The notes beneath the pieces are model-generated. The model was not told the origin of the DNA and ran no database searches. It saw only the letters and a list, made by a program, of their open reading frames with translations. Positions 39,651 through 58,058 of a DNA stretch of 64,000 nt are shown piece by piece. Location of the stretch: assembly GCF_018860745.1 (NCBI RefSeq), contig NZ_JAHKPY010000012.1:62001-126000 (forward strand), in the 5' to 3' direction. How positions within the stretch are numbered: position 1 is the stretch's first letter; each line of letters starts with the position of its first letter. The position numbers were made by a program, and so were the translations under genes. The DNA comes from Zobellia uliginosa (lineage in GTDB: Bacteria > Bacteroidota > Bacteroidia > Flavobacteriales > Flavobacteriaceae).

Positions 39651-39654
39651 TATT

Positions 39655-41702: not shown

Positions 41703-41945
41703 ATGGAATTGGTTATTCAAACCGGGAGAGAAAACAACGACCTATGGAAAATCCCACGGGTAAAAACTTTACTCCAGCCGTACCATCCTGTTATTTCCGC
41801 AGATGTACTTTGTTTGGATGACAAATGCTTTCATTACCTAACGCTAAATGACCATGCCCCTGTACAGAAACTTATAGGTCTACTCATGGAAATAAAAGGC
41901 ATTAAAGCTGCCTATCAAAAACCACTTGACTTCCCCCCAATGTAA
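41703..41945 (+). CDS. Stand-alone protease prodomain/inhibitor-like protein
   Basis: 80 residues, no signal peptide. The C-terminal half ('CFHYLTLNDHAPVQKLIGLLMEIKGIKAAYQKPLDFPPM') lines up with residues ~98-138 of the subtilase encoded next ('QFYKLAAPEGEDLESIAASLNELDEVDGAYVKPGCLPPVY'), sharing F..L, L..I, L.E, AY.KP and PP. That segment precedes the peptidase domain, where subtilases carry their inhibitory I9-type propeptide. I infer that this is a free prodomain that could fold, inhibit or dock a protease of the cluster. It is 119 bases upstream of the subtilase, same strand. Confidence 0.75.
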   Translation: MELVIQTGRENNDLWKIPRVKTLLQPYHPVISADVLCLDDKCFHYLTLNDHAPVQKLIGLLMEIKGIKAAYQKPLDFPPM

Positions 41946-42064
41946 CAGTTTCTATTTGTAGAAGAAAGCTGTTCAAAAGTTAAAAAACACCCCCGCTCTT
42001 ATTGGAAAATCAGTATTAACCTTGGTCGATACTAATAAAAAAGTCGACCTATAAATTCAATTTT

Positions 42065-43816
42065 ATGGCAACAAAAAAAAGTAAAGTAGTCATTGATTCG
42101 CCATCGGGTTCACCACCAGAACTCATTGTCGTCTCAAAAAGCATTGAGGCACCTCATGCCGAGGAAGCCGAAAGTGCAGCAAAATCGAAATCCAAACCAT
42201 CGGCAAATACCTTAGCAGGTTTTGTGGTGGGTAAAAAGCTACAGCTTGTTCCGTTATTCGCGGACACAGATGCAGAAGTGGCGGAACTGGTTTCAAAGGC
42301 AAGCCAAGAAGAAGGCGCCGAAGACCTTTCAAAAATGCGGCAATTTTATAAACTAGCAGCACCGGAAGGAGAAGACCTGGAAAGTATTGCAGCCTCATTG
42401 AACGAACTGGACGAAGTGGATGGTGCGTATGTTAAACCCGGTTGTCTACCTCCCGTTTATTTTGGTGATGACGGTATGGAAGCAGCACCTAGTGATGATG
42501 CACCACCCATTACCCAAAACCTAACAAACAACCAAGGGTATCTAAATGCTGCACCACAAGGGGTAGACGCGCGTTACGCTTGGACGCTACCTGGTGGACG
42601 TGGTAACGGTGTCCGTATTATTGATATTGAGGGTGGTTGGAATTTTAACCATGAGGACTTACGGGTAAACGTAGGTGGCTTACTTGGAGGAAACAACAAC
42701 ACAAGCGACCTACGTTGGCACAATCACGGTACGGCAGTATTTGGTGAAATGACGGGAGACAGAAACAGTTTTGGCGTAACCGGAATATGCCCGAGCGCCA
42801 ATGTCAGGGCTTACTCTATTTTTGGTGTGGGGAGTGCCAATGCTATCAGAAGAGCAGCTGATAATCTCCGCGCCGGCGACCTTATGTTAATTGAATTGCA
42901 TAGAGGAGGACCTAACTATCCCGGTGGAAATACGCAAATGGGCTTCATTGCCATTGAATGGTGGCCAGATGACCTTGCGGCCTTGCAATATGCCACCAAT
43001 AAAGGTATCATAGTCATAGAAGCGGCTGGAAACGGGTCTCAAAACCTTGATGCCGCAATCTATAATACAAGACCTAATGGGTTCCCATCCAGTTGGCGAA
43101 ATCCGTTTCGTAGAACTGCAGGTCATGATAGCGGCTGTGTTATTGTGGGTGCAGGTGCGCCGCCTCCTGGCACTAATGGAGGAAATTGGGGCGCTGACCG
43201 TAGCCGCTTAGGCTTTAGTAATTATGGTTCTTGTGTTGATACCCAAGGTTGGGGCCGAGGTGTTACTACAGCTGGTTATGGAAATGTTACGGGCAACAAC
43301 CCAAATAATAAGAATGAATGGTACACAAATTCCTTTAGTGGTACCAGTAGTGCTTCACCTATCGTTACGGGTGCTGTAGCCTGTTTGCAAGGTATTCAAA
43401 AAGCAGCAGGAAGGGCTATGCTTACGCCTCGTAGAGCTCGCCAATTGTTGAGAAGCACAGGTTCCGCACAACAAGCAGGAGCTAATCCGGTATCTCAACG
43501 CATTGGTAGACGTCCAGACCTAAGGGCATTGGTTAGAGCTACGGCTTCCCGTAGACCTTGGTGTGGAGTTCAGTTCAATGGTAGTGTACCACGTAATGCT
43601 ACCCGCAGATGGTTTACCCATAGCTGGCCTGATCATTACCATGTAATCTGGACGGTAGTTCCAACAGCACCGGCCATTGACGGTTCTGCTCAGATAGAAT
43701 TTGAAGTGAAAACTACAAGACAGGCTTTTGGGCTGATCAAGTATTACATAGAGATCAAAAATCTTAAGAATTATACGGTAAACGTACAAGCACGTTACTG
43801 TGTAGTTGCATCATAA
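42065..43816 (+). CDS. Subtilisin-like serine peptidase (S8) without signal peptide
   Basis: The 583-residue protein starts with a polar, disordered ~45 residues (MATKKSKVVIDSPSG), not a signal peptide. A prodomain-like region follows (~50-140). The catalytic domain (~165-490) has Asp187 in 'IIDIEGGWNFNHEDL', His221 in 'HNHGTAVFGEM', the oxyanion Asn in 'AAGNGSQ' and Ser428 in 'SGTSSASP'. Residues ~498-583 form a small beta domain ('GVQFNGSVPRNATRRWFTHSWP') that is repeated as a separate gene just downstream. The triad looks complete, so it should be active, either in the cytoplasm or after non-Sec export. Confidence 0.92.
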   Translation: MATKKSKVVIDSPSGSPPELIVVSKSIEAPHAEEAESAAKSKSKPSANTLAGFVVGKKLQLVPLFADTDAEVAELVSKASQEEGAEDLSKMRQFYKLAAPEGEDLESIAASLNELDEVDGAYVKPGCLPPVYFGDDGMEAAPSDDAPPITQNLTNNQGYLNAAPQGVDARYAWTLPGGRGNGVRIIDIEGGWNFNHEDLRVNVGGLLGGNNNTSDLRWHNHGTAVFGEMTGDRNSFGVTGICPSANVRAYSIFGVGSANAIRRAADNLRAGDLMLIELHRGGPNYPGGNTQMGFIAIEWWPDDLAALQYATNKGIIVIEAAGNGSQNLDAAIYNTRPNGFPSSWRNPFRRTAGHDSGCVIVGAGAPPPGTNGGNWGADRSRLGFSNYGSCVDTQGWGRGVTTAGYGNVTGNNPNNKNEWYTNSFSGTSSASPIVTGAVACLQGIQKAAGRAMLTPRRARQLLRSTGSAQQAGANPVSQRIGRRPDLRALVRATASRRPWCGVQFNGSVPRNATRRWFTHSWPDHYHVIWTVVPTAPAIDGSAQIEFEVKTTRQAFGLIKYYIEIKNLKNYTVNVQARYCVVAS

Positions 43817-43876
43817 AAACAAATAATATTAATCCGGAAAGGTCAAAAATTTAGCCTTTCCCTAAAATCTAAAATT

Positions 43877-44137
43877 ATGAGAGTAGGTGTTCAATTTACT
43901 GGCAGTGTACCTAGAAATAGTACACGTAAATGGTTTACCCATAGCTGGCCGGAAGCTTGGCATGTGGTATGGAATTGTGTTCCGCAAAGTCCGATTAGGG
44001 ATGGAGGCGCACAACTGGAATGGAAGATTCAAGTCTGTAGACAGAGTAGTACTAAAATCAAGTACTTCATTGAGGCCAAAAACCTTACGGGCTCAACCCT
44101 TCAGTTTGAGGCGCGATACGCTATAATGAACCGATAA
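43877..44137 (+). CDS. Free copy of the subtilase C-terminal domain
   Basis: 86 residues, about 50% identical by eye to the last ~85 residues of the preceding subtilase ('GVQFTGSVPRNSTRKWFTHSWPEAWHVVW' against 'GVQFNGSVPRNATRRWFTHSWPDHYHVIW'; the ends share 'IKY.IE.KNL' and 'ARY'). The ATG lies 60 bases after the subtilase stop. The fold is probably an all-beta sandwich. It could compete for the subtilase's binding partner or co-assemble with it. Domain duplication followed by gene splitting is the simplest origin. Confidence 0.85.
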   Translation: MRVGVQFTGSVPRNSTRKWFTHSWPEAWHVVWNCVPQSPIRDGGAQLEWKIQVCRQSSTKIKYFIEAKNLTGSTLQFEARYAIMNR

Positions 44138-44169
44138 AAATATTTGGTAACACTAAAAATATATGAATT

Positions 44170-44481
44170 ATGAACATAAATATTAATATCAACGATACGT
44201 CTGATGCTACCAGCAATACTGCTGAAGACCCTACGGAAACTACAAGTGCCGTAGCCGATGCAGGGCTTCCACCCTCTGATGTAGCAGGCACATCTGCAGA
44301 CGACCAGAATTCAGGTGATACGGACGCCATTGCTTCAATGGAAGATGGGCATGTAGATATTGGTGGTCCACCAGAATGGCTCCTTCAAGCAATGTCCGAG
44401 TCAACTTCAGAAGAAGACGATGCAACCGCCGCTACCGATGAAGATATGGACGATGGCGGAAGTGGTCCCGAACTGGACTAA
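44170..44481 (+). CDS. Acidic, low-complexity small protein
   Basis: 103 residues made mostly of Asp, Glu, Ser, Thr, Ala and Gly; predicted disordered. The only non-acidic core is 'HVDIGGPPEWLLQAM', which could be a binding or cleavage motif. No signal peptide. It is 32 bases after the free C-domain gene and followed by a terminator, so it closes the subtilase operon. A protease substrate, chaperone or inhibitor tail is possible; none is proven. Confidence 0.7.
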   Translation: MNINININDTSDATSNTAEDPTETTSAVADAGLPPSDVAGTSADDQNSGDTDAIASMEDGHVDIGGPPEWLLQAMSESTSEEDDATAATDEDMDDGGSGPELD

Positions 44482-44501
44482 TTTCCAATTTAGAATTCTT
44501 G

Positions 44502-44527
44502 ACCCGTATGGTGAAAACTGTACGGGT
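44502..44527 (+). terminator. Terminator of the subtilase operon
   Basis: ACCCGTA (44502-44508) pairs with TACGGGT (44521-44527), followed by TTTTGTTTTT. The remaining ~300 bases to the NTPase gene hold nothing recognisable. Confidence 0.8.
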
Positions 44528-44835
44528 TTTTGTTTTTCACAAAAGCTGAATGTATTGAAAAAGCTCTGATAACCAAACAATTAAAACCTCAAAAACACCA
44601 TTTATACAAAATCAACTACAATCCACACAACGCCGAACTAGCTAGGCATCAAAATCACTAATTTAAGATTTTACTTACTGAACGGTAAGCACATATTTAC
44701 AGTAAAAGGTTCCCCTAAAAAATAGAAACTGACTATACACGACCATTGAAACTATGTTTCAATTGGCACATAGTTAAAAACACACGATGGTCTCCATTGT
44801 GAACACCTCATTTTCTAATTCTTATTGCAGAACCC

Positions 44836-47800
44836 ATGCCCACCACGTCTTCTTTAGGAAATTCTCTACGTAAACCCTTTACAGCAAATAAGCGGCTCTT
44901 TACGTTACTTACCGTGGCTTTTATAATTATTGGGCTGTTCTTTGCTATTTACTACTCCCACATTAAAAATAACGAGCACCATTATCGCGAGTCTAAACTT
45001 CACAGTTTAGATGCCAATTTTGACATTATTACCAAGCAACTCAATAATGATTTCCAGAAGTATTATTCTACGGAGTATGATTCCATTTACTCCAGTAAAG
45101 AAGTAACAGCCGAGCTTAGATCAATTTTTTATAACAAACTAAACAACTCGCAATGGAATGCCCTCTTAAATAAGGTCAGTAAAATTACTCCGTCGAAAAG
45201 TATCATAAAAAAACTCACTAAAAATGAAGAAAAAGATGGAGCTTATTCGCTATTAAATCAAAGAGATTCAATTACCAAGAACAAGATAAGACCCAAAGTC
45301 TGGAGAGCTCTTAAACAAAAAATAAGTGAGAGTACACCTTTTGACCAAGAGTTTGATGAATACATTGTCGTTTTTAAAAAATCCGCAGAACTAGATCAAA
45401 AGAACCAAACAGATTCAATTATAGAATTAAGCTCGCTAAAGGGGCGGATTATCTTACCTGACAGCCTTAATAAACTCAATCCGTTTAACATAGGCATGTC
45501 TATTGGCATTCCAAAGAACGATGAGGTTTATCAGCTTTTTGGACGTGAATATACCTATGAAACGGACCTAGATACCCGCGTACATTATGATATTCAAATT
45601 TTTGGACTTGTGGAGACAGAGCGTTACAATGAAGCCGTCAGAAAATTAGATCCCTGGATAATTGCTTTGCTCACCACGTTCTTACTTCTTGGTCTTTTTG
45701 GAATGCCCTATTTTAAAATGCTCTTTATTGCTGAAGATGAACGCCTATCCAGTAATGACGTTATTTTGTCTGGCATATCTGTAATTATTGGTGCGCCCGT
45801 TTTAATAATCGTGTTCTTCTCTCTCATGAACCATTATTACGACTACTACTACAAATTTCCGGACAGACTTGATGATTTAAGTGAAAAAATAAAAACCCGT
45901 TTTGAAGCTGAAAACGCAGCCAATGTTACTACACTTTATGAGATGTCGCTCGCCAGTGAAGAGCGAGCTAGAGATAACAGCGACAGTCTGTCTATTCGTA
46001 TTTCAAAGGCCAATGATGCCTTTCGTGAAAACCACAAGTTTATCTCTAAAATAGATACTGCCACCGGCGCTGTAAAGTATCACATAAGATTAATTGATAA
46101 AAACAACATAGAGAACACAAAAAACCTTGGTAGCCGCCCCTACTACACGGATTATGTTAACGCTAAAAACCTCTGGTTCCTAGATACACTCGCCCATAAA
46201 ATCAAATATGTCATGAGGCCCGTGGTTTCCATTGAAGACCAAAGCGAGGAAGCCGTTTACCTATTGAAAAATGAACGAGACTCCATCTCTGGTTATAGAG
46301 TGGGCGCCGCTCAACTAAAATCTTTGCATGAAGCCATTTTACCCTTTGGCTTTCAGTTTGCCGTGGTAGATGAAACTGGCGAAGTCTGGTTTCACTCCAA
46401 AAAAGGAAGAGCTACCCTAGAAAATTTTCTCTATGTAAGTAGAAACAAAGAAGAAATAGAGGCCGCCATGCTGGGGCGAATAAAAACAGCAGGCATGGTC
46501 AATTATAGAGATAAAGGGCAATTATATAGTATTAGACCCATAGCCAACACTAATCTTAGTGTAATTGCCCTGTATGATATAGGACTTCTTCGCACCAAAG
46601 TATCTGAAGTTTTAACCCTTTCCTGTATTGGTATTGTATTGGCTCTGATTTTAATACTGATTATCACTATCCTTTCGCTCATCATTAGAAATCCGAAACT
46701 AGGACTCTATAAATACGACCGATTCTTATTTGAGTTTTTAACTCCAAAAAAAGAGTTGAGAGACTCTTACATTATTCTGTCCTTCCTTCTTACGGGACTA
46801 ATTACCATTGCATTTGGCATTAGTTTTCTTATACCACCAACTACGGCCTATATTCTATGTCTTCTTCTTGGTATCTATTCCTATTTAATCATATTCTACA
46901 CGTTGCACCCTCATAGAGGAAACAACGATTTTAAGTTTAAGGTTCGCGATATTCTACTGTTATTAGCCATAATTTTCCTCAATATTCTCACTTGTAAAGT
47001 CAATGAAAATGAGATTAAGTACGTGCTTCCTTCCTTAATTCTTCAGTTCATTTGTTTAGCTGTGATTTACTTTAATAAGTCATCAAAAAAAACAAAGTTC
47101 ATTACCAAAGTTCACCATAAAGTACATTCCATAATTAAAAATGTGAGTGACTTTAGCCGACGTAAAAACAGGAACATACGAATTGGCTACAGCTATTGGT
47201 ATGCCCTATTTCTATTCTGTTGGTTGCTTCTGTCTACCATTTTTCCAGCGTATTTAATTTTTAAGAATGCTAAGTTTTTAAATGACCAAATATGGACAAA
47301 GACGGATAAGATTGATATGGCCAGACGCTTCATGGATAAAGAAAAAGAACTGGAAACAAGTTTCCCTGCCTTTACCGGTCAAGAAGATGAATATGCTAAG
47401 CTTCAAGAAAAACACTTAAGTGAAGGTCAATATCACGAGACGTTTACCCTAAAGGAAACAACAAGTACCAAAACCTCTAAAAACACCCCAAAAAACACAG
47501 GCCTAGAAAATTTCCTATGGCACATACGCCCTACTTATGACGCTCGCATAGCTGAATTCCAAGGAATGGTTTATAAATATGCGCATGATTTATCATGGGT
47601 TAATGAAGAAAACCCCAACACCTTTTATCTAAATTATTTAGACAGTAATAAAGCGATTTGCATAGCGGACACCAGTCTAAAAAACTCATCGGACTCTCTA
47701 CCGCCTAAATTCATTCTTTTAGTGGTCATAGGTCTTATTATTATTTTGGCTATTCTATTTTCTTTGATTTTATTTTTCTCGGATCGTTTCTTCGCTTTTC

Positions 47801-49014
47801 GGTTCAGGCATTTAAAACCTAACGATTTTGACACCAATCAGGAAGAAGACTACATTGAAAAATTTGGTCAAATTCTTCACGATGAAAAATCAAATTCCGG
47901 TTTACTCCTTATTGGACCTCCTTTTTGTGGAAAGCAAACCTTTGCCAAGGAAATTCTAACAGATGCCGGTTACCTGAGAATAGCCACACTTTCTATGTTA
48001 CAGCTCGAAAATATGCCAATAAACTCTGACATTGGGGAGAATCTGGGCATCCTTTCCAGCAGCTATCAAAAAGGACAAAATGATTTTCATCATGAGGATT
48101 ATGAAGCCTATGTAATAGAACATTTAGAGCATAACATAAAATCGTTTGACGCCAACCATACCAAACTCCGGATTATCCTATTTCTTATTTCACAGCGAAA
48201 ACGCATTATTCTTGTCTCTGAAGTATATCCAAGCCAAATTTTTTCTATGTATGAGTCCGCTCAAGAAGAAGCTGAACGTTCTTTGGGAAGTCTTCAAGAC
48301 GACTTTAATTCATGGCGTAATATTTTAAGTGCGTTTCCGCAAATCTTAATTGGCATTACAAAAAACACTAAAAAAGTATCCAAACAACTCAATTTTGGCC
48401 TCCAAAGTGCTCAAAGACCATCTTCAAATGATATTGATATTCTAACTGATGAATTGGGGTATAGCAAATTCCTGCCCACTTTGGCGCCTGTTATATTGGT
48501 CAAATCGCTTTATGATACGCCATATGCTGTAAATCAACCGCATCGCTTAGACCGGCAACGCATGGTAATGCATACCCAAAACTTAGCGCATGGCTACTAT
48601 AATGACATCTGGAACACCTTACCTACACGTGAACGCTATTTATTATATGATCTAGCCAAAGATGGTTTTATGAACATCAAAAATAGGAACTCGCTTTTCT
48701 CACTAATGAAAAAAGGTTTGGTGGTATGGCATGATCGGCCTAAGATTTTCAATTACAGTTTTAAGAATTTTATCATGACTTCAGTGTCATTAAATGAAGC
48801 CTTACGACTAGAAAACAAGAACCGCGGAAAAGGGACTTGGGCCAACACACGCATTCTATTTTATCTGCTGATTATAACTGTCATCGTGTTCATTGGTCTA
48901 GGGAAACCAGAGCTACTAAAAGATTTTGAAACGCTGGTTGGCACACTGGGCGGACTAGGCGTATTAATACCTCTAATAAGTAAACTATTGGCCTCTGGAG
49001 GTCAAAAATTATAA
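44836..49014 (+). CDS. Multi-pass membrane sensor with Cache-like domain, cytoplasmic P-loop NTPase and winged helix
   Basis: 1392 residues. First helix at ~21-43, an external region, two helices (~272-335), then a Cache-like external sensor (~340-590: 'DSISGYRVGAAQLKSLHEAILPFGFQFAVVDETGEVWFHS', 'YSIRPIANTNLSVIALYD'). About six more helices follow, another external loop (~820-950), a helix at ~955-980 and the cytoplasmic ATPase with Walker A GPPFCGKQT (1027-1035, Lys1033). A candidate Walker B is 'RIILVSEV'. After it, 'LPTRERYLLYDLAKDGFM...LMKKGLVV' looks like a winged helix, and a C-terminal hydrophobic hairpin ends the protein. I know no family with this layout. A signal outside could drive NTPase-dependent control of the neighbouring proteases (inference). 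Confidence 0.85.
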   Translation: MPTTSSLGNSLRKPFTANKRLFTLLTVAFIIIGLFFAIYYSHIKNNEHHYRESKLHSLDANFDIITKQLNNDFQKYYSTEYDSIYSSKEVTAELRSIFYNKLNNSQWNALLNKVSKITPSKSIIKKLTKNEEKDGAYSLLNQRDSITKNKIRPKVWRALKQKISESTPFDQEFDEYIVVFKKSAELDQKNQTDSIIELSSLKGRIILPDSLNKLNPFNIGMSIGIPKNDEVYQLFGREYTYETDLDTRVHYDIQIFGLVETERYNEAVRKLDPWIIALLTTFLLLGLFGMPYFKMLFIAEDERLSSNDVILSGISVIIGAPVLIIVFFSLMNHYYDYYYKFPDRLDDLSEKIKTRFEAENAANVTTLYEMSLASEERARDNSDSLSIRISKANDAFRENHKFISKIDTATGAVKYHIRLIDKNNIENTKNLGSRPYYTDYVNAKNLWFLDTLAHKIKYVMRPVVSIEDQSEEAVYLLKNERDSISGYRVGAAQLKSLHEAILPFGFQFAVVDETGEVWFHSKKGRATLENFLYVSRNKEEIEAAMLGRIKTAGMVNYRDKGQLYSIRPIANTNLSVIALYDIGLLRTKVSEVLTLSCIGIVLALILILIITILSLIIRNPKLGLYKYDRFLFEFLTPKKELRDSYIILSFLLTGLITIAFGISFLIPPTTAYILCLLLGIYSYLIIFYTLHPHRGNNDFKFKVRDILLLLAIIFLNILTCKVNENEIKYVLPSLILQFICLAVIYFNKSSKKTKFITKVHHKVHSIIKNVSDFSRRKNRNIRIGYSYWYALFLFCWLLLSTIFPAYLIFKNAKFLNDQIWTKTDKIDMARRFMDKEKELETSFPAFTGQEDEYAKLQEKHLSEGQYHETFTLKETTSTKTSKNTPKNTGLENFLWHIRPTYDARIAEFQGMVYKYAHDLSWVNEENPNTFYLNYLDSNKAICIADTSLKNSSDSLPPKFILLVVIGLIIILAILFSLILFFSDRFFAFRFRHLKPNDFDTNQEEDYIEKFGQILHDEKSNSGLLLIGPPFCGKQTFAKEILTDAGYLRIATLSMLQLENMPINSDIGENLGILSSSYQKGQNDFHHEDYEAYVIEHLEHNIKSFDANHTKLRIILFLISQRKRIILVSEVYPSQIFSMYESAQEEAERSLGSLQDDFNSWRNILSAFPQILIGITKNTKKVSKQLNFGLQSAQRPSSNDIDILTDELGYSKFLPTLAPVILVKSLYDTPYAVNQPHRLDRQRMVMHTQNLAHGYYNDIWNTLPTRERYLLYDLAKDGFMNIKNRNSLFSLMKKGLVVWHDRPKIFNYSFKNFIMTSVSLNEALRLENKNRGKGTWANTRILFYLLIITVIVFIGLGKPELLKDFETLVGTLGGLGVLIPLISKLLASGGQKL

Positions 49015-49839: not shown

Positions 49840-51168
49840 ATGAGAAAAGCAATTCCATTCGTATGGTTTCTGTGCTTCTATTATTTTTCAATGGAGGCAC
49901 AGGAAACCATTACGTTCAAAGCCGATTTAGCAAAAAAAGAATTAGAACATGTAGCTACGGACGACCTGAAAGCGAACCAATTTTATGATTTGAAAATACT
50001 AGGTGTCAACACTGCTTTTGTTGCGGTTGTGGTTACAACTACAGATTACAGTTTAACCTCTAGCACACCGGGTCTTCTAAAATCGCTTTTACTTAAAATT
50101 CCAGATTCGGGTATTTTAGGTTTTATATCTCAAGAGAGCGATGCCCCAAAATATGGGCTCATCTATGCCCAATCTATGGAGCATATTAAAAAACTGGATT
50201 CTCTTACGAAACGTTCCAATGCCCTTTATGAAGTCTCCAATGACAATGCCGAATTTAGAACATTGGACATGGTGAAAGGCATTCAAAAGAAGGCCCAACT
50301 TCATTTACGGAAACTCAACCAAGTTTTCAATACAACTGCAGATATACTGCAGCCAAAAAAGGTAGATTATGATGTACTGAGAAGCAATGTGTCCCAATCG
50401 TATCATTACATTCAAAGTGCTAAACACTATTATAAAACCCTTCTCGAGAATTCTGACCTGAGTATAGATTCTAGTGTAGCCAATGAATTGATTTTATATT
50501 CTTCAAATTTGGAGGTGCTGAGCGAATCTATTGATTTGGAAACCAGTTTAAGGTATTTTGATTTTCTTGTGGGTTCTACGGAGATGAAGAACTACGAGCA
50601 ATTTCCAGAACTGCTAAAGGCATCTAAAGACGTTATGGAAGCAAAAATAACGCTCATCAATACGTTTACGAACGATACTATTTTTACTAAAAAAATCGAC
50701 TTTTTTACAAAGAAAGGTGGTTTTAAGTTCGATTTCTCAACGGGATTCTTCTATAACAACCTCAACGAAAAGTCGTACTATTTGGAAAGTCAAGATGATG
50801 GACGAAACCGAATACTAGAAGAAAAAGGAAGTAATTTTGATGTAGCAATTGGAGCATTGGCACATTTCAGTTATCAATTTAAAGCTGGACTACGAGGTGG
50901 AATAAATGCCGGAGCAGCGGTATCACCTCTAGACGGCATTACTCGATATCTATTTGGGGCTGGAGTATTAATAGGTAGAGAGCAGCTCATAGGTTTAAAT
51001 GCTGGGGCTTCGTTAGCGCGACTAGATGTGCTCTCAAATAGCGTGGAAAGTGAAAATGGAAATTTGTACGTTCCCGCAGAAATCACCTCAGCCCCCACCT
51101 ATAAAAAATCGAAATGGGGCATCTATGTTGGGCTTACCTACAACCTCACCAGAGAGCGAAAAAAATAA
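49840..51168 (+). CDS. Exported protein with helical N-terminal half and C-terminal beta-barrel
   Basis: A signal peptide ('IPFVWFLCFYYFSMEAQ') is followed by ~250 residues of mostly helical sequence ('LHLRKLNQVFNTTADILQPKKVDY'). The last ~150 residues have alternating beta strands typical of an outer-membrane barrel ('GFKFDFSTGFFYNNLN', 'VAIGALAHFSYQFKAGLRGGINAGAAVSP', 'WGIYVGLTYNLTRERKK'). It is 30 bases after the metallopeptidase and is the only protein of this operon with a signal peptide, so it may be the outer-membrane end of the system. Confidence 0.8.
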   Translation: MRKAIPFVWFLCFYYFSMEAQETITFKADLAKKELEHVATDDLKANQFYDLKILGVNTAFVAVVVTTTDYSLTSSTPGLLKSLLLKIPDSGILGFISQESDAPKYGLIYAQSMEHIKKLDSLTKRSNALYEVSNDNAEFRTLDMVKGIQKKAQLHLRKLNQVFNTTADILQPKKVDYDVLRSNVSQSYHYIQSAKHYYKTLLENSDLSIDSSVANELILYSSNLEVLSESIDLETSLRYFDFLVGSTEMKNYEQFPELLKASKDVMEAKITLINTFTNDTIFTKKIDFFTKKGGFKFDFSTGFFYNNLNEKSYYLESQDDGRNRILEEKGSNFDVAIGALAHFSYQFKAGLRGGINAGAAVSPLDGITRYLFGAGVLIGREQLIGLNAGASLARLDVLSNSVESENGNLYVPAEITSAPTYKKSKWGIYVGLTYNLTRERKK

Positions 51169-51171
51169 AAG

Positions 51172-51660
51172 CTAAGTATCCAGCTCAGGATATAATTTTC
51201 TTGCTTTTGCAGCTATACCCTGCAATTCGCCTGAAGACATTTCCATTTCCAGACCTCGATTTTCCATTGACTTTTTTTGACCGCCTTCCGCTTGCATGAT
51301 CATTGCACCAAGAACGAGGCCCTTATTGTGCTCCGCTACTTTCTCGTCTTTGATTTTTTCCTTTTGTTCCTCTACTTCTTTCTTTTCCGTTTCTGCCTTT
51401 TCAGCTCGCTTTCTATTTACTTCTTTTCCGAATAGAAACCCCACCGCAGCAAAAACAATGGCCTCTACTCCTGAAAACAAATAAATCAACCGGCTCCAAC
51501 TAGGGTCGCCGCTATCAACTTTTCCAATTAAAAAATAGATAAAAATGCCGTAGGCTATAAGAACGGCAAGTGCAATCATATTTTCAAAAGTGAACCAACC
51601 TTTAGGATTGGTAGCTGGTTCGGGAAAGCTACCTGTAGTTACTTTAGTTTTATCTGGCAT
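51172..51660 (-). CDS. Small membrane protein with two helices and a coiled coil
   Basis: 162 residues: two membrane helices (~30-50 'MIALAVLIAYGIFIYFLIG' and ~60-82 'LIYLFSGVEAIVFAAVGFLFG'), then a long charged helix ('KEVNRKRAEKAETEKKEVEEQKEKIKDEKV') and a polar cytoplasmic tail. It is the last gene of the - strand hydrolase operon, 12 bases after the M19-like gene, and converges on the outer-membrane gene with 3 bases between stops. It could anchor the operon's soluble enzymes to the membrane (inference). Confidence 0.75.
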   Translation of the reverse strand: MPDKTKVTTGSFPEPATNPKGWFTFENMIALAVLIAYGIFIYFLIGKVDSGDPSWSRLIYLFSGVEAIVFAAVGFLFGKEVNRKRAEKAETEKKEVEEQKEKIKDEKVAEHNKGLVLGAMIMQAEGGQKKSMENRGLEMEMSSGELQGIAAKARKLYPELDT

Positions 51661-51672
51661 AATGAATCTATT

Positions 51673-53460
51673 TTAAACCAATTCGGCTTCCGTGCTTGTC
51701 TCCCCTTTTTTGGGCTCAGATAAGCCCTCTAAAAAACCACGTCTATCTAAAAATTCACGCCCGTTTTCATAGAGTATGCCTACTACCACCTCATTTAACT
51801 CTTTCTTTTTCTTAGTAAAATCGAACAAATCTTTGGCTCCCCCATTCACCTTCTGATATTTCTTGGCAGCAACCGGCAACCATTTCATCAAGCATGCTTT
51901 TAAATTTTTGAATTGGCGGCTATCACTACATATATTGGACGGCTCAATAAAAGCATCAAAATCACTACCTATACAGATAAATTTTTCCGGTGCATCCTGA
52001 AATTTGGATTTTAAACCAATCACAGCCATAATATGAATGATATTAAAACAAAAGTTTAACGGATGTACTTCTTTCTTGGAAGGCTCTAACCATGACTCTT
52101 CCGCTTGTATTTCCTCTACACTGGCATAATTTATTGATTTAATACTGGTGTATGGAAAGTAATGGATAAAATCTGGTGTGGTTATAAATTCGCACACATC
52201 TTCTTGAAGTTTAGATTTTGTGCTGTATCCCAATATATCCACATCCAGCCCCACTCCAATAAGTCCGTTGCTATTGGCAATTTCAATAATATCTTCATCC
52301 ATTAAATTAATGGTTCCGGGATGAAAACTGAATTCCGTGTTGGCATCAGCACCCCAATATCCTGCTACTTTGGGTTTTGTGTATAGCTTAACGGTCTTTA
52401 TTCCTTGATCTACGTGATTCGCACATTTTTCAATTTCAAGATTGTGCTTCCAATCACTTATGGAATACCCTGTTACACCAACGTGAGAAGCAATCAAGGG
52501 AATTTTACCAAAACCTTCTTTCTCTCGTAAGGCGTATAAATCTTCCCTGGACTTCAGGCTTAAATGCTTGATGTCTATCAATACGCCTGCATCATCCTTT
52601 TTTTTGGTAGGCGCTTCTAATTTATAAGCTGTTCTAACAACTTCTTCCCCTAATTCACTTAATCCATTCCCAAAAGGATAAAAAGACGGATGCCTGAGGT
52701 TTTTCGTTCCATAAGCATGTGTCGCCAAATGTTGCTCCGGTATATGCGTTAAGTGGGTAAGGGTTAGGTACAGTATATCCAATCCATATTCGCGGAATGT
52801 TTTATACAACTTTTTAAGTACCTCCTGTGGTTTTCTATTGTCTTCGGAAATGGCAAAATTAGGATCAAAAAACGGGTCTTTTTCCAATCCCTCAAAACTA
52901 TCATAATCAAGGGCATTCCCTATTTTTTTCATACAAAGATTATGTCCGCCTTCAATTGCGAACACCAAATTTGGCAACGCTTTTGATACGGCTTCTCTAG
53001 TATTTTTAGAAGGCCTGGCAATAAGATTTAAACTTCCTTTTGTGTGTGGCTCCCTATTTTCTAAATTTCTGTTTTTTAGATATAATGCCACCTCTTTCAG
53101 AAACAAATTTAGATATGAAACCTCCCCTTCTTTAATCGCATCAAAATAGGCATCATCCAGCGGTTTTTTGAGGTAGCTTTTTAATACATCGGCTAGAAAC
53201 CCTTTACTGGAAGCCATCCCAAATTCTATAGCGGCAATAGCGGCTATGCCGTACCGTACAGGAGCCTCATTCAGGTAATCAATGCAACATTGACTTTCAA
53301 GCCTGCGAAGTACATTCTCATCTGTATAATCTTTAAAAGCTTTGGTCATACTTATGGGCATGGTGGCTGCATTCGCTTTTTTTGAATGCGACTCTTTTGG
53401 CTTTGGTGCCAAGTGGTTTTTTGCCATGGGATGAAAATGAAGGTCAAAATAATTATCCAT
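51673..53460 (-). CDS. Membrane dipeptidase (M19)-like amidohydrolase, signal-peptide-less
   Basis: 595 residues, longer than typical M19 enzymes (~350-400). Metal-site elements are present in family order: His8-x-His10 ('DLHFHP'), bridging Glu170 in 'AIEGGH', 'LTLTHLTH' (236-239), His326 in 'ASHVGV' and 'GSDFD' with Asp500 and Asp502. A ~100-residue helical insertion sits between the HxH and EGGH motifs. M19 enzymes cleave dipeptides, including those with D-amino acids, and some act on peptidoglycan products. It starts with MDNYFDLHFHP, so no export signal is present. It is 11 bases after the dual protease gene. Confidence 0.82.
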   Translation of the reverse strand: MDNYFDLHFHPMAKNHLAPKPKESHSKKANAATMPISMTKAFKDYTDENVLRRLESQCCIDYLNEAPVRYGIAAIAAIEFGMASSKGFLADVLKSYLKKPLDDAYFDAIKEGEVSYLNLFLKEVALYLKNRNLENREPHTKGSLNLIARPSKNTREAVSKALPNLVFAIEGGHNLCMKKIGNALDYDSFEGLEKDPFFDPNFAISEDNRKPQEVLKKLYKTFREYGLDILYLTLTHLTHIPEQHLATHAYGTKNLRHPSFYPFGNGLSELGEEVVRTAYKLEAPTKKKDDAGVLIDIKHLSLKSREDLYALREKEGFGKIPLIASHVGVTGYSISDWKHNLEIEKCANHVDQGIKTVKLYTKPKVAGYWGADANTEFSFHPGTINLMDEDIIEIANSNGLIGVGLDVDILGYSTKSKLQEDVCEFITTPDFIHYFPYTSIKSINYASVEEIQAEESWLEPSKKEVHPLNFCFNIIHIMAVIGLKSKFQDAPEKFICIGSDFDAFIEPSNICSDSRQFKNLKACLMKWLPVAAKKYQKVNGGAKDLFDFTKKKKELNEVVVGILYENGREFLDRRGFLEGLSEPKKGETSTEAELV

Positions 53461-53471
53461 GATTTTTGCTT

Positions 53472-56216
53472 TTAATTGAAACTTTCAAAATATACTTTTA
53501 GTAATCTTTCCGTTTGGTCTTCATCAAACTGACCATAACTTTCAAACACCTTGTTTACCGGTCTTCCCGTCATTGCGGCCACACTTATCCGTGCTCGTTC
53601 TGTTAAGGCTTCTCCAACTTGTTCGCTTTCAAAACCGGGCGTTAGTTTTCTACGTGCGGTGTTCCATAAAAAATGCACGGTTTCACGAACGCCTAAGTCC
53701 CATTCTTTGCGACTCTCCTTACCTGCATAAGCATTCTTCAGCCCTTTAATTTCTTCTGCGGTTACTTCTTTTGCCAATAAAGCCGTTACATCTAAAATCC
53801 CCGCCCCAAAACGCTTTTGGTCCCATTCTCTATTATCCACCACATCCTGGGCAGATTCTTTTAAATGCTTCCGAAACAACTCAACAATTTGCCACGGTTT
53901 CTCTATGAATTTGTTCAGGTTTTTAAAGTTTTTAGCTTTCCATAAAGCCGCAGCAGAAGCCACATGTGGCGTTGCATAGCTCGTACCCGAACCAAATACC
54001 ATTATGTCTTCTTGCTTTTTGTTCTTGAACGGCACATACACATCTTCGCCGGGTGCCGTTATATCTACCGCTGGGCCGTACGATGTATACCGCCAAGGTT
54101 CGTTATTTGGGTTAGATGCAGCAACGGCAATAGTACCCGGATACACTGCCGGAGCAATTACGGATTCTACCATATTACCTGCCGCACATACCCAAATAAC
54201 CCCTCGTTCATAGGCCGTTTTGGCAATACTATAAATCATAGGCCTCGGATAACTGCCCATGCACATAAAAACAACATCTGCATTGGCGTTGATTGCCTGA
54301 GAAACGGCATTGAACAAATTGCGCCCTCTACCGATTAAAATCACGGATTTTGAAATCCGATACGGAATTACCTTTACCAATGATTCTTCTTCCGCAACGG
54401 CAACCCCTTGATTCCCGTCATTTTCAATTCTGCCGTTAGCCCTGTTCCCCATAATTATACTTGCGGTACGGGTGCCGTGACCGGGTTGTTTTAAAATGCC
54501 CATGCTCATTTCATCCCTAGCATCTTCCCCATCTATAAAATCTTCATCCTGCAGTAAGTTGTAGCCTCCCAAAACCTTGGAATGGTCCGTATAGCCCGTA
54601 TCTAATTGTATCAGTCGTATTTTATCGGCATTTGCTTTTAAACTGTCATATGCTTTAACGTCCTTCAGATTGTTCGCGTTTGTCGCATTTAGATTCCACT
54701 TTCTATATTCGCCACTCTGCCCTTTTGGGATAAAATCCTTTACCAAACTGGCATTCGCCCATCGGATTTTAAAATCACCTTCACTCTTGTCCCAATCTGC
54801 CGTGCCGTCATCTAGAGATTCTAAACTTTCATTACCTGACCAGCGCCCATAATGCCCGGGTTTGATATCCGTAGACATTTCCAGATCGGGCGTACAGGTA
54901 TCTATTTGTGGCAACCCTTCCAGTTCTGCCGCCACTTCCCATGGGGTTTTATCGGATTGCACATGTATGTAATAAAAAAGCCTGTGGGCCTGTTCTGTAG
55001 ACATCGGGTACAAAGGCTCGCTAAGCACCAGACCGGGAACCAAACTGGCTGCGTTTTGCTTCCAGTCGTTTTGCATTTCTTTGACTCCGGATAGTTGTAT
55101 CTCAAAATATAGGGTCTGATCGGTTGTACTTTCGGAATGGTTCATAGCATACTGTGTTGATGGTGTAGTTCTATTTTCGGTATGAACAGGAGTTGAACTC
55201 ACATTTGTATCTAAAACACTGACCAAAGACGACTTGTATTTTTCCATTGCTTTGCTAACAGGCATTTTTGCTATCATATTCAGGATACTACTCACACGAA
55301 TACCTTCGTTCCCCATCCAGTCTATCATATTATCCGGGTCTCCGGGTTGTACTACGGACCCGTCTTTTCTCAGCCATTGTCCGTGTCTGTTTTTTCTGGG
55401 TACGGCACTGTGGTGTAGCGCTACTACTTCACCCGTACCCAAACCGAGAACCATACTTCCCGATGAACCGGGAAGCGTATCCGATTCATAGATTAGAAAG
55501 TCATCTTTAAGCACCAACATGCGAATGTCTTTCATTACAATTTTCTTGTAATCCCCTTTTGGGTGTTGCACAATGGCACAGTTCTCCCCATCTATAATTT
55601 TACCCAGTTTTTTATCTAATCGGGCGACAGGAAAATTACTGATCGGTGTTCCTTCATTGGAAACTTTCTCCACCGCGACAATGGTAAAATCCAGACCGCT
55701 ATACGGGTCACCAGTATCTTTTTTGTAATGCGAAGTCATAAAGAATTCCTCTGGTAGCAAATTGAAACTTTCCGATTTATTGGGGTTTCCTTGCTGGTCC
55801 AATTCGTAGTTAAATTGAATGGTAGAATTGCTTGCCGTTTCCGCCGTGCCCAACACATGATTGTTGGTAAGGATAAGGTTCGGGGCTATCAAAAAACCGG
55901 TGCCGTGCCCTGTGTTACCCAATCTGGAATTGGTAGTAATTCTACCCACGGCCCTAGACAATTCTACGATACGCTGAATGATACGGATATCCTGAAAATT
56001 GGCCTCTCCATTAATGCGCTCCAATGCTTGAAGTTCCGCTGTTCCCTCACGGGAAATTCGGTTGTACAAGCGCTCGGTATCGGTTTGTATTTCAGATAGT
56101 TCCACCTTTCCTTGGCGAACATGGGTTATATCTGTTTTTATTCTATCAATGTCATTTAAGACACTGGAATAATTAGCATAGGACTCTTCGGCCAACTCCC
56201 TTAATTTATCATCCAT
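53472..56216 (-). CDS. Dual-protease fusion: trypsin-like (S1) plus subtilisin-like (S8) domain
   Basis: 914 residues, no signal peptide. An N-terminal helical region (~1-90) precedes an S1 domain with His120 in 'LTNNHVL', Asp176 in 'GLDFTIV' and Ser252 in 'LPGSSGS'. A linker (~330-520) with 'EIQLSGVKEMQNDW' follows. The S8 domain has Asp539 in 'IQLDTGYTDHS', His580 in 'PGHGTRTAS', oxyanion Asn681 in 'AAGNMV' and Ser746 in 'GSGTSYATP'. Both triads look complete. The C-terminal ~120 residues are helical ('EEIKGLKNAYAGKESRKEWDLG'). Two different serine-protease clans in one chain is very unusual; one may activate the other. It is in the middle of the - strand hydrolase operon. Confidence 0.92.
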   Translation of the reverse strand: MDDKLRELAEESYANYSSVLNDIDRIKTDITHVRQGKVELSEIQTDTERLYNRISREGTAELQALERINGEANFQDIRIIQRIVELSRAVGRITTNSRLGNTGHGTGFLIAPNLILTNNHVLGTAETASNSTIQFNYELDQQGNPNKSESFNLLPEEFFMTSHYKKDTGDPYSGLDFTIVAVEKVSNEGTPISNFPVARLDKKLGKIIDGENCAIVQHPKGDYKKIVMKDIRMLVLKDDFLIYESDTLPGSSGSMVLGLGTGEVVALHHSAVPRKNRHGQWLRKDGSVVQPGDPDNMIDWMGNEGIRVSSILNMIAKMPVSKAMEKYKSSLVSVLDTNVSSTPVHTENRTTPSTQYAMNHSESTTDQTLYFEIQLSGVKEMQNDWKQNAASLVPGLVLSEPLYPMSTEQAHRLFYYIHVQSDKTPWEVAAELEGLPQIDTCTPDLEMSTDIKPGHYGRWSGNESLESLDDGTADWDKSEGDFKIRWANASLVKDFIPKGQSGEYRKWNLNATNANNLKDVKAYDSLKANADKIRLIQLDTGYTDHSKVLGGYNLLQDEDFIDGEDARDEMSMGILKQPGHGTRTASIIMGNRANGRIENDGNQGVAVAEEESLVKVIPYRISKSVILIGRGRNLFNAVSQAINANADVVFMCMGSYPRPMIYSIAKTAYERGVIWVCAAGNMVESVIAPAVYPGTIAVAASNPNNEPWRYTSYGPAVDITAPGEDVYVPFKNKKQEDIMVFGSGTSYATPHVASAAALWKAKNFKNLNKFIEKPWQIVELFRKHLKESAQDVVDNREWDQKRFGAGILDVTALLAKEVTAEEIKGLKNAYAGKESRKEWDLGVRETVHFLWNTARRKLTPGFESEQVGEALTERARISVAAMTGRPVNKVFESYGQFDEDQTERLLKVYFESFN

Positions 56217-56244
56217 GATGTACAGCGTTACAAATGGTTATTTT

Positions 56245-57261
56245 TTAATTTTCAATCAACTCTAAATCCACAGCATAATGGTCCAAATCTGCTTTGTTCA
56301 ATTCATTGGGTGCCCCCATTGTTATAGCTTCCAGTTCTGCATAATCCAATACAAAATCTTGGTATTTGGTAAAAAGTCCGTTTAACATCTCTATGAACTC
56401 CGGTTGCGGAAAACAGTCCGTTTTATCCGTTCTTACATGGCAATGCGTCCACACACCAGGTGCGCCCGTTTGTGCTTCTTCACTTATAGCAAACCAAGAA
56501 CTGCTATATTTAAAATCTCTAATGGGTACATCAAAAACCTTAGCTAGCGTGAGTAGCAACCGCTCACATTCTGCGATTTGCTTTTCGGTATATTTCTGAA
56601 AATATTGATGTCCTCTCCACGGCGTGTTCAATTGACAAACCTCAGATTCCGGCACAACTATTTTCTTGGAATTACTCTGAAAGTAAAACTGACCGTCATT
56701 GCTTTTTTGAAGCGGACCTAAAGAACAAATCTCAATCCCTATTGATTTTTTGTTGAGCAGTTTATTGTTGTTCAATCTCGTTCCCAAGTGGTGTGCCCAG
56801 AACATTTCATTAAAAGCCCTGTAGGTCACCCCATCAAACATATCATCACCATCCAAGGACCTTCTTCCAATAACAAAAGAGGTGCCTACCCTGTTTAAAG
56901 TCCCCGGTTTATTATCGTTTTCCCACCAGCCAATAGTATAATCAGGTCTGTGCAGTCCTGCAGTATGATGCAAGTAGATGGTATCTTTCTCTGTGTATTG
57001 GTGCATCCACTCATCATCTTCAAGAATATAATCTGTGGTACCCCAGCCAAAATTATAGCCGGTAAGCATTAATTTCTCCCATGTGTTTTTGCCTACAATA
57101 CCATCTACACCTAGAAAATTGGCACGTTGAAACTGTACCACTTTATCATGTGTAAGTGCATCAAAATCGGAAGAAATTTCCAGTGGATATCCAGACCGCC
57201 CCAATAGTTTTTTTAAGAATGAAACGGAGGAATTAAAACTGCCTTTACGCAATGTTTTCAT
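56245..57261 (-). CDS. N-acetylmuramoyl-L-alanine amidase with N-terminal peptidoglycan-binding domain
   Basis: With ATG 57261 the product has 338 residues; a TTG at 57309 would overlap the upstream gene. The N-terminus is a PG_binding_1-type domain ('SSVSFLKKLLGRSGYPLEISSDFDALTHDKVVQFQRANFLGVDGIVGKNTWEKL'). The amidase_2 domain has the zinc His in 'IYLHHTAG', 'AHHLG', the catalytic Glu in 'SIGIEI' and a second His plus acidic residues in 'THCHVRTDKTDCFP'. It should cut the amide bond between MurNAc and the stem peptide. No signal peptide is present, unlike housekeeping amidases, so release by lysis or a contractile/secretion machine is possible. Confidence 0.88.
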   Translation of the reverse strand: MKTLRKGSFNSSVSFLKKLLGRSGYPLEISSDFDALTHDKVVQFQRANFLGVDGIVGKNTWEKLMLTGYNFGWGTTDYILEDDEWMHQYTEKDTIYLHHTAGLHRPDYTIGWWENDNKPGTLNRVGTSFVIGRRSLDGDDMFDGVTYRAFNEMFWAHHLGTRLNNNKLLNKKSIGIEICSLGPLQKSNDGQFYFQSNSKKIVVPESEVCQLNTPWRGHQYFQKYTEKQIAECERLLLTLAKVFDVPIRDFKYSSSWFAISEEAQTGAPGVWTHCHVRTDKTDCFPQPEFIEMLNGLFTKYQDFVLDYAELEAITMGAPNELNKADLDHYAVDLELIEN

Positions 57262-57302
57262 TTTTTGAATTTTAGAGTTAGAAGCGTATTTCCTGAATGA
57301 CC

Positions 57303-58058
57303 CTACCAATTGGCAACCCCATCTATAAATTCTTGATACAGGTCCGAAGACTTATTGGGGCAACCACCGTAATTGTGAATGCCCACACCAATACATCTAT
57401 TTCTCAACAGCGGGCTTCCACTTTGCCCGCCAAACGTATCTGCCTGATAAAAGAACCTACCATTTTCCTTTACCAGATTATCGGACATTTTATATTGAAA
57501 CAATCCATTATCACGGTCCGCAGGATACCCGCAAATTTCAGCTATGTTCGGGTCTTCCATGGCAGGTGTAATAAAACTACAATGACTCACCTCTTTACTG
57601 AGTTTAATAGCACCCATATCATATCTTGTAGAGGCATTATCTATCCAACCTCTAGTGGCCATAAGTTCCACAGCCTCATACCTACCATACGGTTCTGCGA
57701 GTCCACTTTTACCGGGAATGGCAATGATGGAAGTTTTCCAACCTCCAGAAGATTTGTTGTAGACGCAATGTCCGGCCGTATATAAAATGTTTCCGGCCAC
57801 CAGCCATCCAGAACCCACATAATTCAAGCCATTACTGGCTTTCATGTACAGCTTACAAATAGCCATATACGGCATTTGCTGAGTTGCTAATACTTTTTGG
57901 CGCTGATCAATTCCACAAACCGTTTCGTTGGTTAAATCTTCATTCCGCTCAATCCATGATTCGCTGGTTATCTCTTTCTCGTTTATTCCCTGGTTTTCTT
58001 CAACCAGTTTATGAAAAACAAGCTCTTTTTCTATTTCTGTTGTGATTACATCTCCCAT
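57303..58058 (-). CDS. Trypsin-like serine protease, V8/glutamyl-endopeptidase-like
   Basis: 251 residues, first gene of the - strand operon. The catalytic triad is His97 in 'YTAGHCV', Asp147 in 'RYDMGAI' and Ser213 in 'FGGQSGSP', the layout of the S1B (V8) group. The N-terminal ~55 residues are acidic and polar ('EIEKELVFHKLVEENQGINEKEITSE') and may act as a propeptide; there is no signal peptide. It may start a proteolytic cascade in the operon, since S1 enzymes usually need release of the N-terminus (inference). Confidence 0.9.
   Translation of the reverse strand: MGDVITTEIEKELVFHKLVEENQGINEKEITSESWIERNEDLTNETVCGIDQRQKVLATQQMPYMAICKLYMKASNGLNYVGSGWLVAGNILYTAGHCVYNKSSGGWKTSIIAIPGKSGLAEPYGRYEAVELMATRGWIDNASTRYDMGAIKLSKEVSHCSFITPAMEDPNIAEICGYPADRDNGLFQYKMSDNLVKENGRFFYQADTFGGQSGSPLLRNRCIGVGIHNYGGCPNKSSDLYQEFIDGVANW

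Follow-up and report, generated by a model that had tools for sequence, protein, structure and literature searches.

A 64,000-nucleotide stretch of the Zobellia uliginosa genome (contig NZ_JAHKPY010000012.1, positions 62,001 to 126,000), called the window below, carries a cluster of genes for proteases, a peptidoglycan (PG) amidase and a 1392-amino-acid (aa) membrane protein. An earlier note on this DNA had proposed that the membrane protein, taken to be a sensor nucleoside triphosphatase (NTPase), stands at the centre of the cluster and triggers its proteases. The comparisons reported here point to a different centre. Almost certainly, at least in anatomical terms, the conserved core of the cluster is a pair of adjacent genes, one encoding a double protease in which a trypsin-like (S1) and a subtilase (S8) domain share one polypeptide, and the other an amidohydrolase-type protein related to M19 dipeptidases. 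We refer to these two as S1-S8 and M19, and keep the label NTPase for the membrane protein.

The locus and its transcription units

The genes and other features of the locus are collected in Table 1. Domain assignments for window proteins are Pfam matches, with those to AAA and PF04030 lying below cut-off. All six hydrolase genes that had been listed at this locus (subtilase, matrixin-like, S1-S8, V8-like, M19-like and amidase) are borne out by Pfam. Their products had also been said to lack visible signal peptides, and a hydropathy scan indeed finds no N-terminal hydrophobic segment in any of the six, although this is a weak test that missed the signal-peptide-like N-terminus of the 442-aa protein. 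The amidase start given in the table is the ATG at 57261, the commonest start among homologues, and its open reading frame (ORF) reaches a TTG at 57309.

Table 1. Features of the locus, with positions in the window
Feature	Position	Strand	Basis or remark
S1-S8 double protease, 914 aa	53472..56216	-	Trypsin_2 3.1e-13, S8 9.3e-30 (Pfam); core gene 1
M19-like amidohydrolase-type protein, 595 aa	51673..53460	-	PF01244 2.8e-8, best stretch in C-terminal half; core gene 2
TM162, hairpin of two transmembrane (TM) segments with charged C-terminal tail	51172..51660	-	Hydropathy
Multi-TM protein (NTPase), 1392 aa	44836..49014	+	Degenerate AAA/STAND-like domain
Amidase: PG_binding_1 + Amidase_2 (N-acetylmuramoyl-L-alanine amidase)	56245..57261	-	Pfam
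V8/trypsin-like serine protease, 251 aa	57303..58058	-	Pfam 2.8e-7; first gene of the minus-strand operon
Matrixin-like metallopeptidase, 258 aa	49033..49809	+	PF00413 2.6e-6, HELGHIFGLRH
442-aa protein	49840..51168	+	Signal-peptide-like N-terminus (by eye)
Subtilase, 583 aa	42065..43816	+	PF00082, E 1.2e-15; accessory cassette
Free prodomain-like protein, 80 aa	41703..41945	+	hhalign E 3e-4, probability 40%
Free copy of subtilase C-terminal domain, 86 aa	43877..44137	+	~54% identity over 81 aa
Acidic protein, 103 aa, probably disordered	44170..44481	+	Composition
Intrinsic-terminator-like site, 12-base-pair stem, T-rich tail	44501..44528	+	Terminator scan
LP120, small lipoprotein-like protein	39288..39650	+	Hydrophobic N-terminus, then Cys
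FAD555, FAD-linked oxidase, aldonolactone-oxidase type	39625..41292	+	PF01565 5.2e-7

The two convergent operons described in the earlier note do converge, and the 3 bases reported between their stops (51168/51172) are there, as they are in loci L016, L017, L018, L019 and L022. The plus-strand genes, by contrast with that description, probably form two transcription units, one running from the free prodomain through the subtilase and the C-terminal domain to the acidic protein and the other comprising the NTPase, matrixin and 442-aa genes, because a terminator-like hairpin separates this subtilase cassette from the NTPase gene. Its stem is the longest among 22 such sites (15.2 expected). The genes of the cluster are as the earlier note gave them, but its start at 41703 leaves out LP120 and FAD555, which lie just upstream and belong to the neighbourhood. 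As a whole, the locus is assembled from modules that can be separated and is not a single indivisible system.

A linked pair: S1-S8 and M19

Full-length homologues of the NTPase, M19 and S1-S8 occur in the same eight of 198 related genomes, and the three genes are adjacent in all eight. The co-occurrence and adjacency contemplated in the earlier note thus hold for these three genes, in the eight carriers and in more loci of Flavobacteriaceae, whereas the other parts vary. Since six of the eight carriers belong to one genus, relatedness accounts for part of this pattern; specifically, they are six of the nine Zobellia genomes, the module being missing from the other three, and the two remaining carriers each represent a different genus. 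G125, a ninth genome, encodes an isolated NTPase homologue that is 24% identical (L023). Matches to M19 in 10 further relatives are short and weak (3.5e-6 or worse), and those to S1-S8 in 49 further relatives mostly concern the S8 domain, the strongest (G025, 2.6e-28) being a fusion of an S1 domain to Endonuclease I. In Zobellia amurskyensis (G005; L019/L063) stops interrupt the NTPase gene, and both core genes are intact.

A pattern scan of 84,980 genomes based on the M19 profile yielded at least 28 loci, a lower bound, all of them in Bacteroidota. Together with the window and L016, L017, L018 and L021 these make 33 distinct loci; three genomes entered twice (L019/L063, L020/L066 and L022/L064), and counts of distinct loci omit L019, L020 and L022. 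Contig ends cut the 5′ end of M19 in L086 and L090, which leaves 31 assessable loci, and S1-S8 lies directly upstream of M19 on the same strand in 30 of them (L083 is counted from an S1-S8 fragment, and L085 and L090 come from one metagenome-assembled genome, or MAG). The single true exception is L087, where M19 stands without S1-S8. Loci with the pair include those of Zobellia, Chryseobacterium, Spirosoma and Chitinophaga, and a mobilizable Hymenobacter plasmid also carries it, annotated in its record as 'S8 family serine peptidase' and 'hypothetical protein'. The two genes are 2-39 bases apart in 26 loci, 77 in L021 and 322 in L065, and overlap by 17 in L067 and L071 when the longest ORF is taken; in the window, M19 starts 11 bases after the S1-S8 stop codon. 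The distances among S1-S8 proteins and among M19 proteins correlate at 0.89 (30 rows, with three genomes present twice), a value reached by none of 999 permutations.

In an even sampling of the phylum, M19 relatives are found in 7 of 395 genomes, and only that of the window has an S1-S8 neighbour. Because the other relatives lack this partner, it is one clade of a larger M19-like family that has the association with S1-S8. The pair is rare and scattered across Bacteroidota.

S1-S8 consists of a conserved N-terminal segment, the trypsin-like domain (residues ~91-320), a variable linker, a stretch at ~367-455, the subtilase domain (526-822) and a C-terminal region. The stretch at ~367-455 may be called prodomain-like by position and resemblance only. 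The S1 triad is intact in 32 of 32 rows, as are the S8 Asp, His and Asn (29 distinct), and the S8 Ser is kept in 31, with Gly in its place in Kaistella palustris (L088). On the strength of such conserved residues, the proteases of the cluster look active. A PDB search with the S8 part returns an intracellular serine protease at the top (7xr8, 7y6m), followed mostly by secreted subtilisins. We considered and rejected a prodomain common to S1-S8 and the free 80-aa protein (hhalign probability 2.7%), and a relationship between the prodomain-like region of S1-S8 and the prodomain of the subtilase is likewise not supported (7.2%). A relative of the S1 part (28% identical) fused to Endonuclease I (L145:8772-11006) provides a precedent for fusion; it adjoins a gene for a CBS-domain protein whose N-terminus appears, by eye, to be TM-like.

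The metal and catalytic residues of renal and other M19 dipeptidases follow the pattern HxD...E...H...H...D. In the M19-like protein HxH is present in 33 of 33 rows, the recognisable C-terminal half holds a GSDFDG motif, and at the position aligned with the second His, 25 of 30 distinct sequences have Asn. The presumed metal-site Glu, His or Asp is altered in 4 of 14 distinct NTPase-linked sequences versus 0 of 16 others, and six standalone sisters (L172-L177) all retain HxH, Glu, His and Asp. Because the sisters keep these residues and the changes are confined to NTPase-linked members, the metal site looks ancestral, and in the alignments it appears sometimes to have decayed where the receptor is present. 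The M19 profile has no PDB relatives by sequence, and we discount a single weak hit, a terpene synthase.

A second contrast concerns the segment at residues 182-229. For this comparison the linked set omits L087 and includes the Hymenobacter protein (30 rows). The segment is 45-82 residues long in 29 of 30 linked rows versus 16-27 in all six standalone sisters, and another segment (271-296) is also longer on average in linked rows. Among linked proteins, identity is about 20% in both segments versus 48% in the rest of the protein. By analogy, the 182-229 segment is a possible gate: the nuclease HamM has two insertions at which a trypsin-like partner protease cleaves it (Tuck et al., 2025, PMC12799240).

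The genes around the pair differ among lineages. The Hymenobacter pair is flanked by two amidase genes, one immediately upstream of S1-S8 and the other after M19, the Rufibacter pair is followed directly by a gene for a PG-binding protein, and in Chitinophaga an M15 PG hydrolase is encoded two genes upstream. The amidase profile has no match in the loci of Chryseobacterium, Kaistella, Larkinella and Spirosoma, and no PG domain is present in the nine neighbours that were scanned with Pfam (from five such loci plus L074). Homologous proteins of 1146 and 1175 aa (34% identical) are encoded downstream of M19 in Rufibacter (L076:13145-16585) and in a Cytophagaceae MAG (L090:1006-4533), and the Rufibacter protein has a patatin domain.

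The membrane protein and the accessory genes

The 1392-aa protein has three predicted extracytoplasmic regions, an AAA/STAND-like domain, a winged-helix-like region and a C-terminal TM hairpin. Its earlier description as a membrane protein therefore stands, whereas the other two parts of that description fare less well. Pfam Cache models have no match in any of eight homologues at E 0.1, and the NTPase motifs are degenerate. STAND and AAA NTPases share the Walker A consensus GxxxxGK[ST] and the Walker B consensus hhhhD[D/E], from which this protein departs, its Pfam AAA match being below cut-off. Specifically, all 14 distinct module members have Gln, Leu, Arg, Lys or Tyr at the position of the Walker A Ser/Thr, and Ser takes the place of the Walker B Asp in 13 of 13. 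Of six distant homologues, one reads GR instead of GK and the other five show no aligned P-loop, although these alignments are poor. Because the Walker A Ser/Thr and the Walker B Asp are missing, the protein is probably a pseudo-NTPase membrane receptor, to judge from its sequence. Its profile has no PDB relatives. Mean identity is 36.6%, 51.9% and 30.8% in outer regions 1, 2 and 3, versus 89.4% in the winged-helix-like region, and fast outer regions beside a conserved winged-helix region form a pattern as a receptor might show.

The notion that this protein is the centre and necessary trigger of the system is not supported by its distribution. At E 1e-5 its profile has no match in any of the 15 genomes with an NTPase-less M19 locus, with three of three positive controls matched and genome completeness not shown. 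These genomes come from Chryseobacterium, Kaistella, Rufibacter, Larkinella, Spirosoma, Rudanella and Chitinophaga and include three MAGs or similar; 14 have the S1-S8/M19 pair, and one (L087) has M19 alone. Conversely, distant NTPase homologues occur in five of the 395 phylum genomes besides that of the window, and the neighbourhoods retrieved for them contain neither an M19 nor an S1-S8 gene. Judged by these gene sets, the receptor is an addition to the core pair. Downstream of one distant homologue (L111) lie a lipoprotein-like gene and a FAD555 homologue, and another (L113:6573-12358) begins 53 bases after a gene for a Tle1-like phospholipase; on these few cases, the family may be one of receptors with changing partners. 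In a Pricia MAG (L070:10793-14131) the NTPase gene runs in the same direction as the core pair rather than convergently, and the contig ends inside the gene.

The composition of the module was counted over 14 distinct NTPase-bearing loci. TM162 and FAD555 are each present in 13, the amidase in 11 (one a fragment), the matrixin in nine and the V8-like protease in eight. The subtilase, free prodomain and acidic protein share the same eight loci, the C-terminal domain is present in eight, the LP120 profile matches in eight, and the 442-aa protein, for which no family was found, is present in six, which are those of Zobellia. L016 ends before the V8-like gene, and a fetched flank (L154) aligns across it. 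The motifs around the V8 His, Asp and Ser are identical in 8 of 8 rows, the matrixin zinc motif is present in 11 of 11 rows and its Met-turn in 10 (the L071 gene is in two pieces), and the subtilase motifs are conserved among homologues.

The subtilase has an N-terminal prodomain-like region and a C-terminal GVQF...WFTH domain, and its full-length form is found in 5 of 198 relatives, always inside the module, with three weaker partial matches elsewhere. The earlier note had recognised free versions of both terminal parts. For the free prodomain the support is moderate (Table 1), and this 80-aa protein is possibly an inhibitor of the subtilase; the free C-terminal domain is confirmed by its resemblance to the C-terminus of subtilase homologues. 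The acidic protein is as had been described, with 27 Asp or Glu residues and no Lys or Arg. The topology of TM162 may be termed holin-like from hydropathy only.

FAD555 matches PF04030 just under cut-off and, in the PDB, L-galactono-1,4-lactone dehydrogenase (2.5e-6), with no signal peptide seen. It is encoded in 8 of 8 module genomes versus 9 of 190 others and lies on either side of the module; it is missing from L069 even after an 8.8-kilobase extension beyond the cassette. FAD555 also stands without the module in eight other loci of the same family (L137-L144), with LP120 profile matches in seven; one of these FAD555 genes lies beside a patatin gene and one beside an M15 PG hydrolase gene.

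Elsewhere in the window, positions 19475-27054 hold genes for a type IIG restriction-methylation enzyme, a DRT accessory (RTasYodC), a Drt2-like reverse transcriptase and a phage-type integrase, and these defence-type genes lie at least 12 kilobases from the module. A gene for an SRAP protein beside DnaE-type and ImuB-like polymerase genes (5536-10525) forms a mutagenesis cassette by family, and a HipA C-terminal kinase-like gene (33348-34280) weakly matches a candidate defence model.

Interpretation and comparison with known systems

We favour, with a probability of about 0.35, the reading that this locus encodes a triggered module for intracellular proteolysis that ends in lysis or serves defence, a conflict system of the protease-hydrolase type. 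Beyond the anatomy of the genes, every step of its mechanism is one that we infer. The outer domains of the receptor would sense an envelope insult such as phage, toxin or damage, which would be relayed through the pseudo-NTPase and winged-helix regions. The S1 domain, once activated, would cut near the prodomain-like stretch and so free the S8 domain, and would also cut the extra loop of M19, which might be a gated proenzyme or, where its metal site has decayed, a substrate or scaffold. The hairpin protein TM162 could then open the membrane and let the PG amidase reach the wall, leading to dormancy, death or lysis of the affected cell. This reading draws support from the linkage of the pair, the distance correlation of 0.89 and the kept catalytic residues. 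The fast outer regions, and the distant NTPase homologues beside the Tle1-like gene and the FAD555 homologue, argue for its receptor logic. Further support comes from the M19 segment contrast, the S1-Endonuclease I fusion and the PG-type neighbours in Hymenobacter, Rufibacter and Chitinophaga. In a more specific and doubtful form, the S1-S8/M19 operon would be a new, rare and widely scattered conflict core of Bacteroidota, its double protease activating itself and opening a gated M19, and Flavobacteriaceae would have made of it a receptor-controlled lysis system by adding the fast-evolving pseudo-NTPase, the holin-like hairpin and the endolysin-like amidase.

Several observations weigh against this interpretation. 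The left flank (29-38.8 kilobases) is conserved in five other Zobellia module genomes, which places the module at the same site in six genomes of the genus, in contrast to defence genes that are rapidly exchanged. Searches of PADLOC 2.0.0 and NCBIfam with nine module proteins find nothing beyond shared protease domains, the weak PADLOC matches being to subtilase, RT-protease, LmuA, Avs1b and PDC-S45 (best 2.6e-6). M19 relatives are found in no phage records, and neither M19 nor S1-S8 in viral contigs (S1-S8 was not searched in phage records). The distances of the NTPase correlate at only 0.55 with those of S1-S8 and 0.60 with those of M19. As far as scanned, the pairs of Chryseobacterium, Kaistella, Larkinella and Spirosoma have no receptor or PG-hydrolase neighbour, and the Chryseobacterium pair sits between Band_7 and HD-hydrolase genes. 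The six distant M19-like genes L172-L177 have no S1-S8 neighbour, and one of them (L177) has a gene for a PG-binding muramidase 7.6 kilobases away, so PG-hydrolase neighbours also arise by chance. The Hymenobacter M19, as annotated, does not span the HxH, and its 182-229 segment is short (23 residues), while in the unlinked near-clade protein L087 the two segments measure 52 and 23, the first being long; both cases speak against strict gating. Finally, all six segments that were compared differ in length (uncorrected p <0.05), two of them being longer in the sisters, and the segment length is for this reason suggestive rather than proof.

Two simple identities can be set aside. A known defence system is rejected on the PADLOC and NCBIfam searches, which recover shared domains only; FAD555 has no PADLOC match either. 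Cargo of phages or plasmids is rejected because M19 was found in neither phage records nor viral contigs, S1-S8 not in viral contigs, and the pair on a single plasmid, that of Hymenobacter.

Other explanations read the same facts differently. The single chromosomal site in six Zobellia genomes, the neighbours shared by the Kaistella and Chryseobacterium loci shown, the intact metal-site residues of the six standalone sisters, the S8 part's PDB matches (an intracellular protease, then mostly secreted subtilisins) and the failure to find viral copies would all suit a housekeeping role, in which the products of the pair and of the genes around it would, under envelope stress, dispose of misfolded proteins or salvage peptides and cell-wall fragments that the cell has imported, with the membrane protein as stress sensor. 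We regard this as unlikely, since the genes are rare and unevenly distributed (7 of 395 genomes have M19 relatives, S1-S8-linked only in that of the window, and the module missing from three of nine Zobellia), since the outer regions of the receptor evolve fast, and since a changed metal-site residue in 4 of 14 NTPase-linked M19 proteins would be odd for a recycling enzyme. That there is no single system at all, and that S1-S8/M19, LP120 with FAD555, the receptor and the subtilase cassette lie together by chance or as hitchhikers in a hotspot, strikes us as rather unlikely. Its appeal lies in the parts that stand apart elsewhere (the pair without the NTPase, LP120 with FAD555 without the module, the NTPase without proteases nearby, and M19 without S1-S8) and in the interrupted Z. 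amurskyensis NTPase gene beside an intact pair. Independent occurrence of the NTPase and the proteases had been named in advance as evidence against a common system, and it is found in part, because the locus is a composite of separable modules. Yet the NTPase, M19 and S1-S8 occur together in all eight carriers among 198 relatives, FAD555 accompanies 13 of 14 module loci on either side, and the full-length subtilase is found only inside the module.

Distinctly unlikely is an arsenal of effectors, that is, hydrolases without signal peptides that either enter competitors through a contractile injection system or are set free by lysis. The chemistry is effector-like (PG amidase, proteases and, beside a distant NTPase homologue, a Tle1-like lipase gene), and in Pseudozobellia thermophila (L102, L020) LP120, FAD555 and the NTPase directly follow the end of a contractile-injection cluster, in which two sheath-like matches occur, one of them over cut-off. 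This adjacency recurs in no other genome searched for the sheath. The sheath family PF04984 has no match in any of the nine Zobellia genomes, which leaves an injected-effector reading without a carrier there and leads us to reject, for Zobellia, delivery by an extracellular contractile injection system as the general mechanism. Among 19 further carrier genomes (two already counted; the genome of L067 was left out of the search) four have a sheath match, two over cut-off, on contigs that differ in length from the module contigs. As for immunity, the free prodomain-like protein is a weak candidate, and none is seen for the core pair.

The triggered-proteolysis reading aside, a pair that has two intact triads and stays together in several families of a single phylum makes a clean two-gene subject for asking how proteolytic cascades are armed and gated. 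The occurrence of the same core with a receptor (Zobellia, Pricia, Arenibacter) and without one (Kaistella, Spirosoma) constitutes a natural test of receptor control. If the triggered-proteolysis reading is true, then an M19-type fold has been recruited into a proteolytic cascade, and a receptor has retained its architecture after the loss of its NTPase motifs.

The cascade logic proposed in the earlier note has precedents (PMC7159879, PMC12799240), and the proteases here keep their catalytic residues. A literature search that covered mostly openly readable papers found no such protease pairs or protease-PG-lysis systems that fit beyond those of PMC7159879, and the passages of PMC8195603 that were consulted contain nothing matching. 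The NucA-trypsin systems ('System 3'; Kaur et al., 2020, PMC7159879), as far as the portion consulted describes them, are mostly alphaproteobacterial and have a proposed proteolytic cascade, some with an S8 domain in the same polypeptide, and an optional NTPase; some have PG-hydrolase effectors, and a subset carries the EAD1 adaptor on effectors. The module resembles them in joining a trypsin-like peptidase with S8 in one protein, and differs in belonging to Bacteroidota, in its M19-like partner and in having a degenerate multi-TM protein for an NTPase. No module protein has a Pfam match to NucA/Endonuclease_NS, and none matches an EAD-type model at E 0.1, the EAD model content of the Pfam copy being unverified. 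A NucA/Endonuclease_NS gene with a signal-peptide-like N-terminus (by eye) lies four genes upstream of the Hymenobacter pair.

The protease-gated nucleases of Hachiman, AVAST and canu systems (PMC12799240) likewise place a trypsin-like protease gene beside one for a metallo-hydrolase with extra variable segments. Here, in contrast, the hydrolase is M19-like rather than of the metallo-beta-lactamase (MBL) type, the protease is fused to a subtilase and there is no DNA sensor; in Pfam the M19 partner matches Peptidase_M19 alone and no MBL-fold nuclease. With the M19 membrane dipeptidases (PF01244) the core hydrolase shares a recognisable C-terminal half and the GSDFDG motif, and it departs from them in having HxH rather than HxD, in the replacement of a later His by Asn in most sequences, in the lack of a visible signal peptide, in its length (595 aa versus a 319-position model) and in having no PDB relative by sequence. 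Similarly, the S8 domain is of the cytosolic type seen in intracellular subtilisins (7xr8, 7y6m), from which it differs in following a trypsin-like domain on the same polypeptide and in having M19 as its gene partner. Thus, the module resembles both the NucA-trypsin systems and the protease-gated nucleases and fits the definition of neither. Its logic of signal, protease and effector is of a known kind, whereas its core proteins and its receptor match neither precedent.

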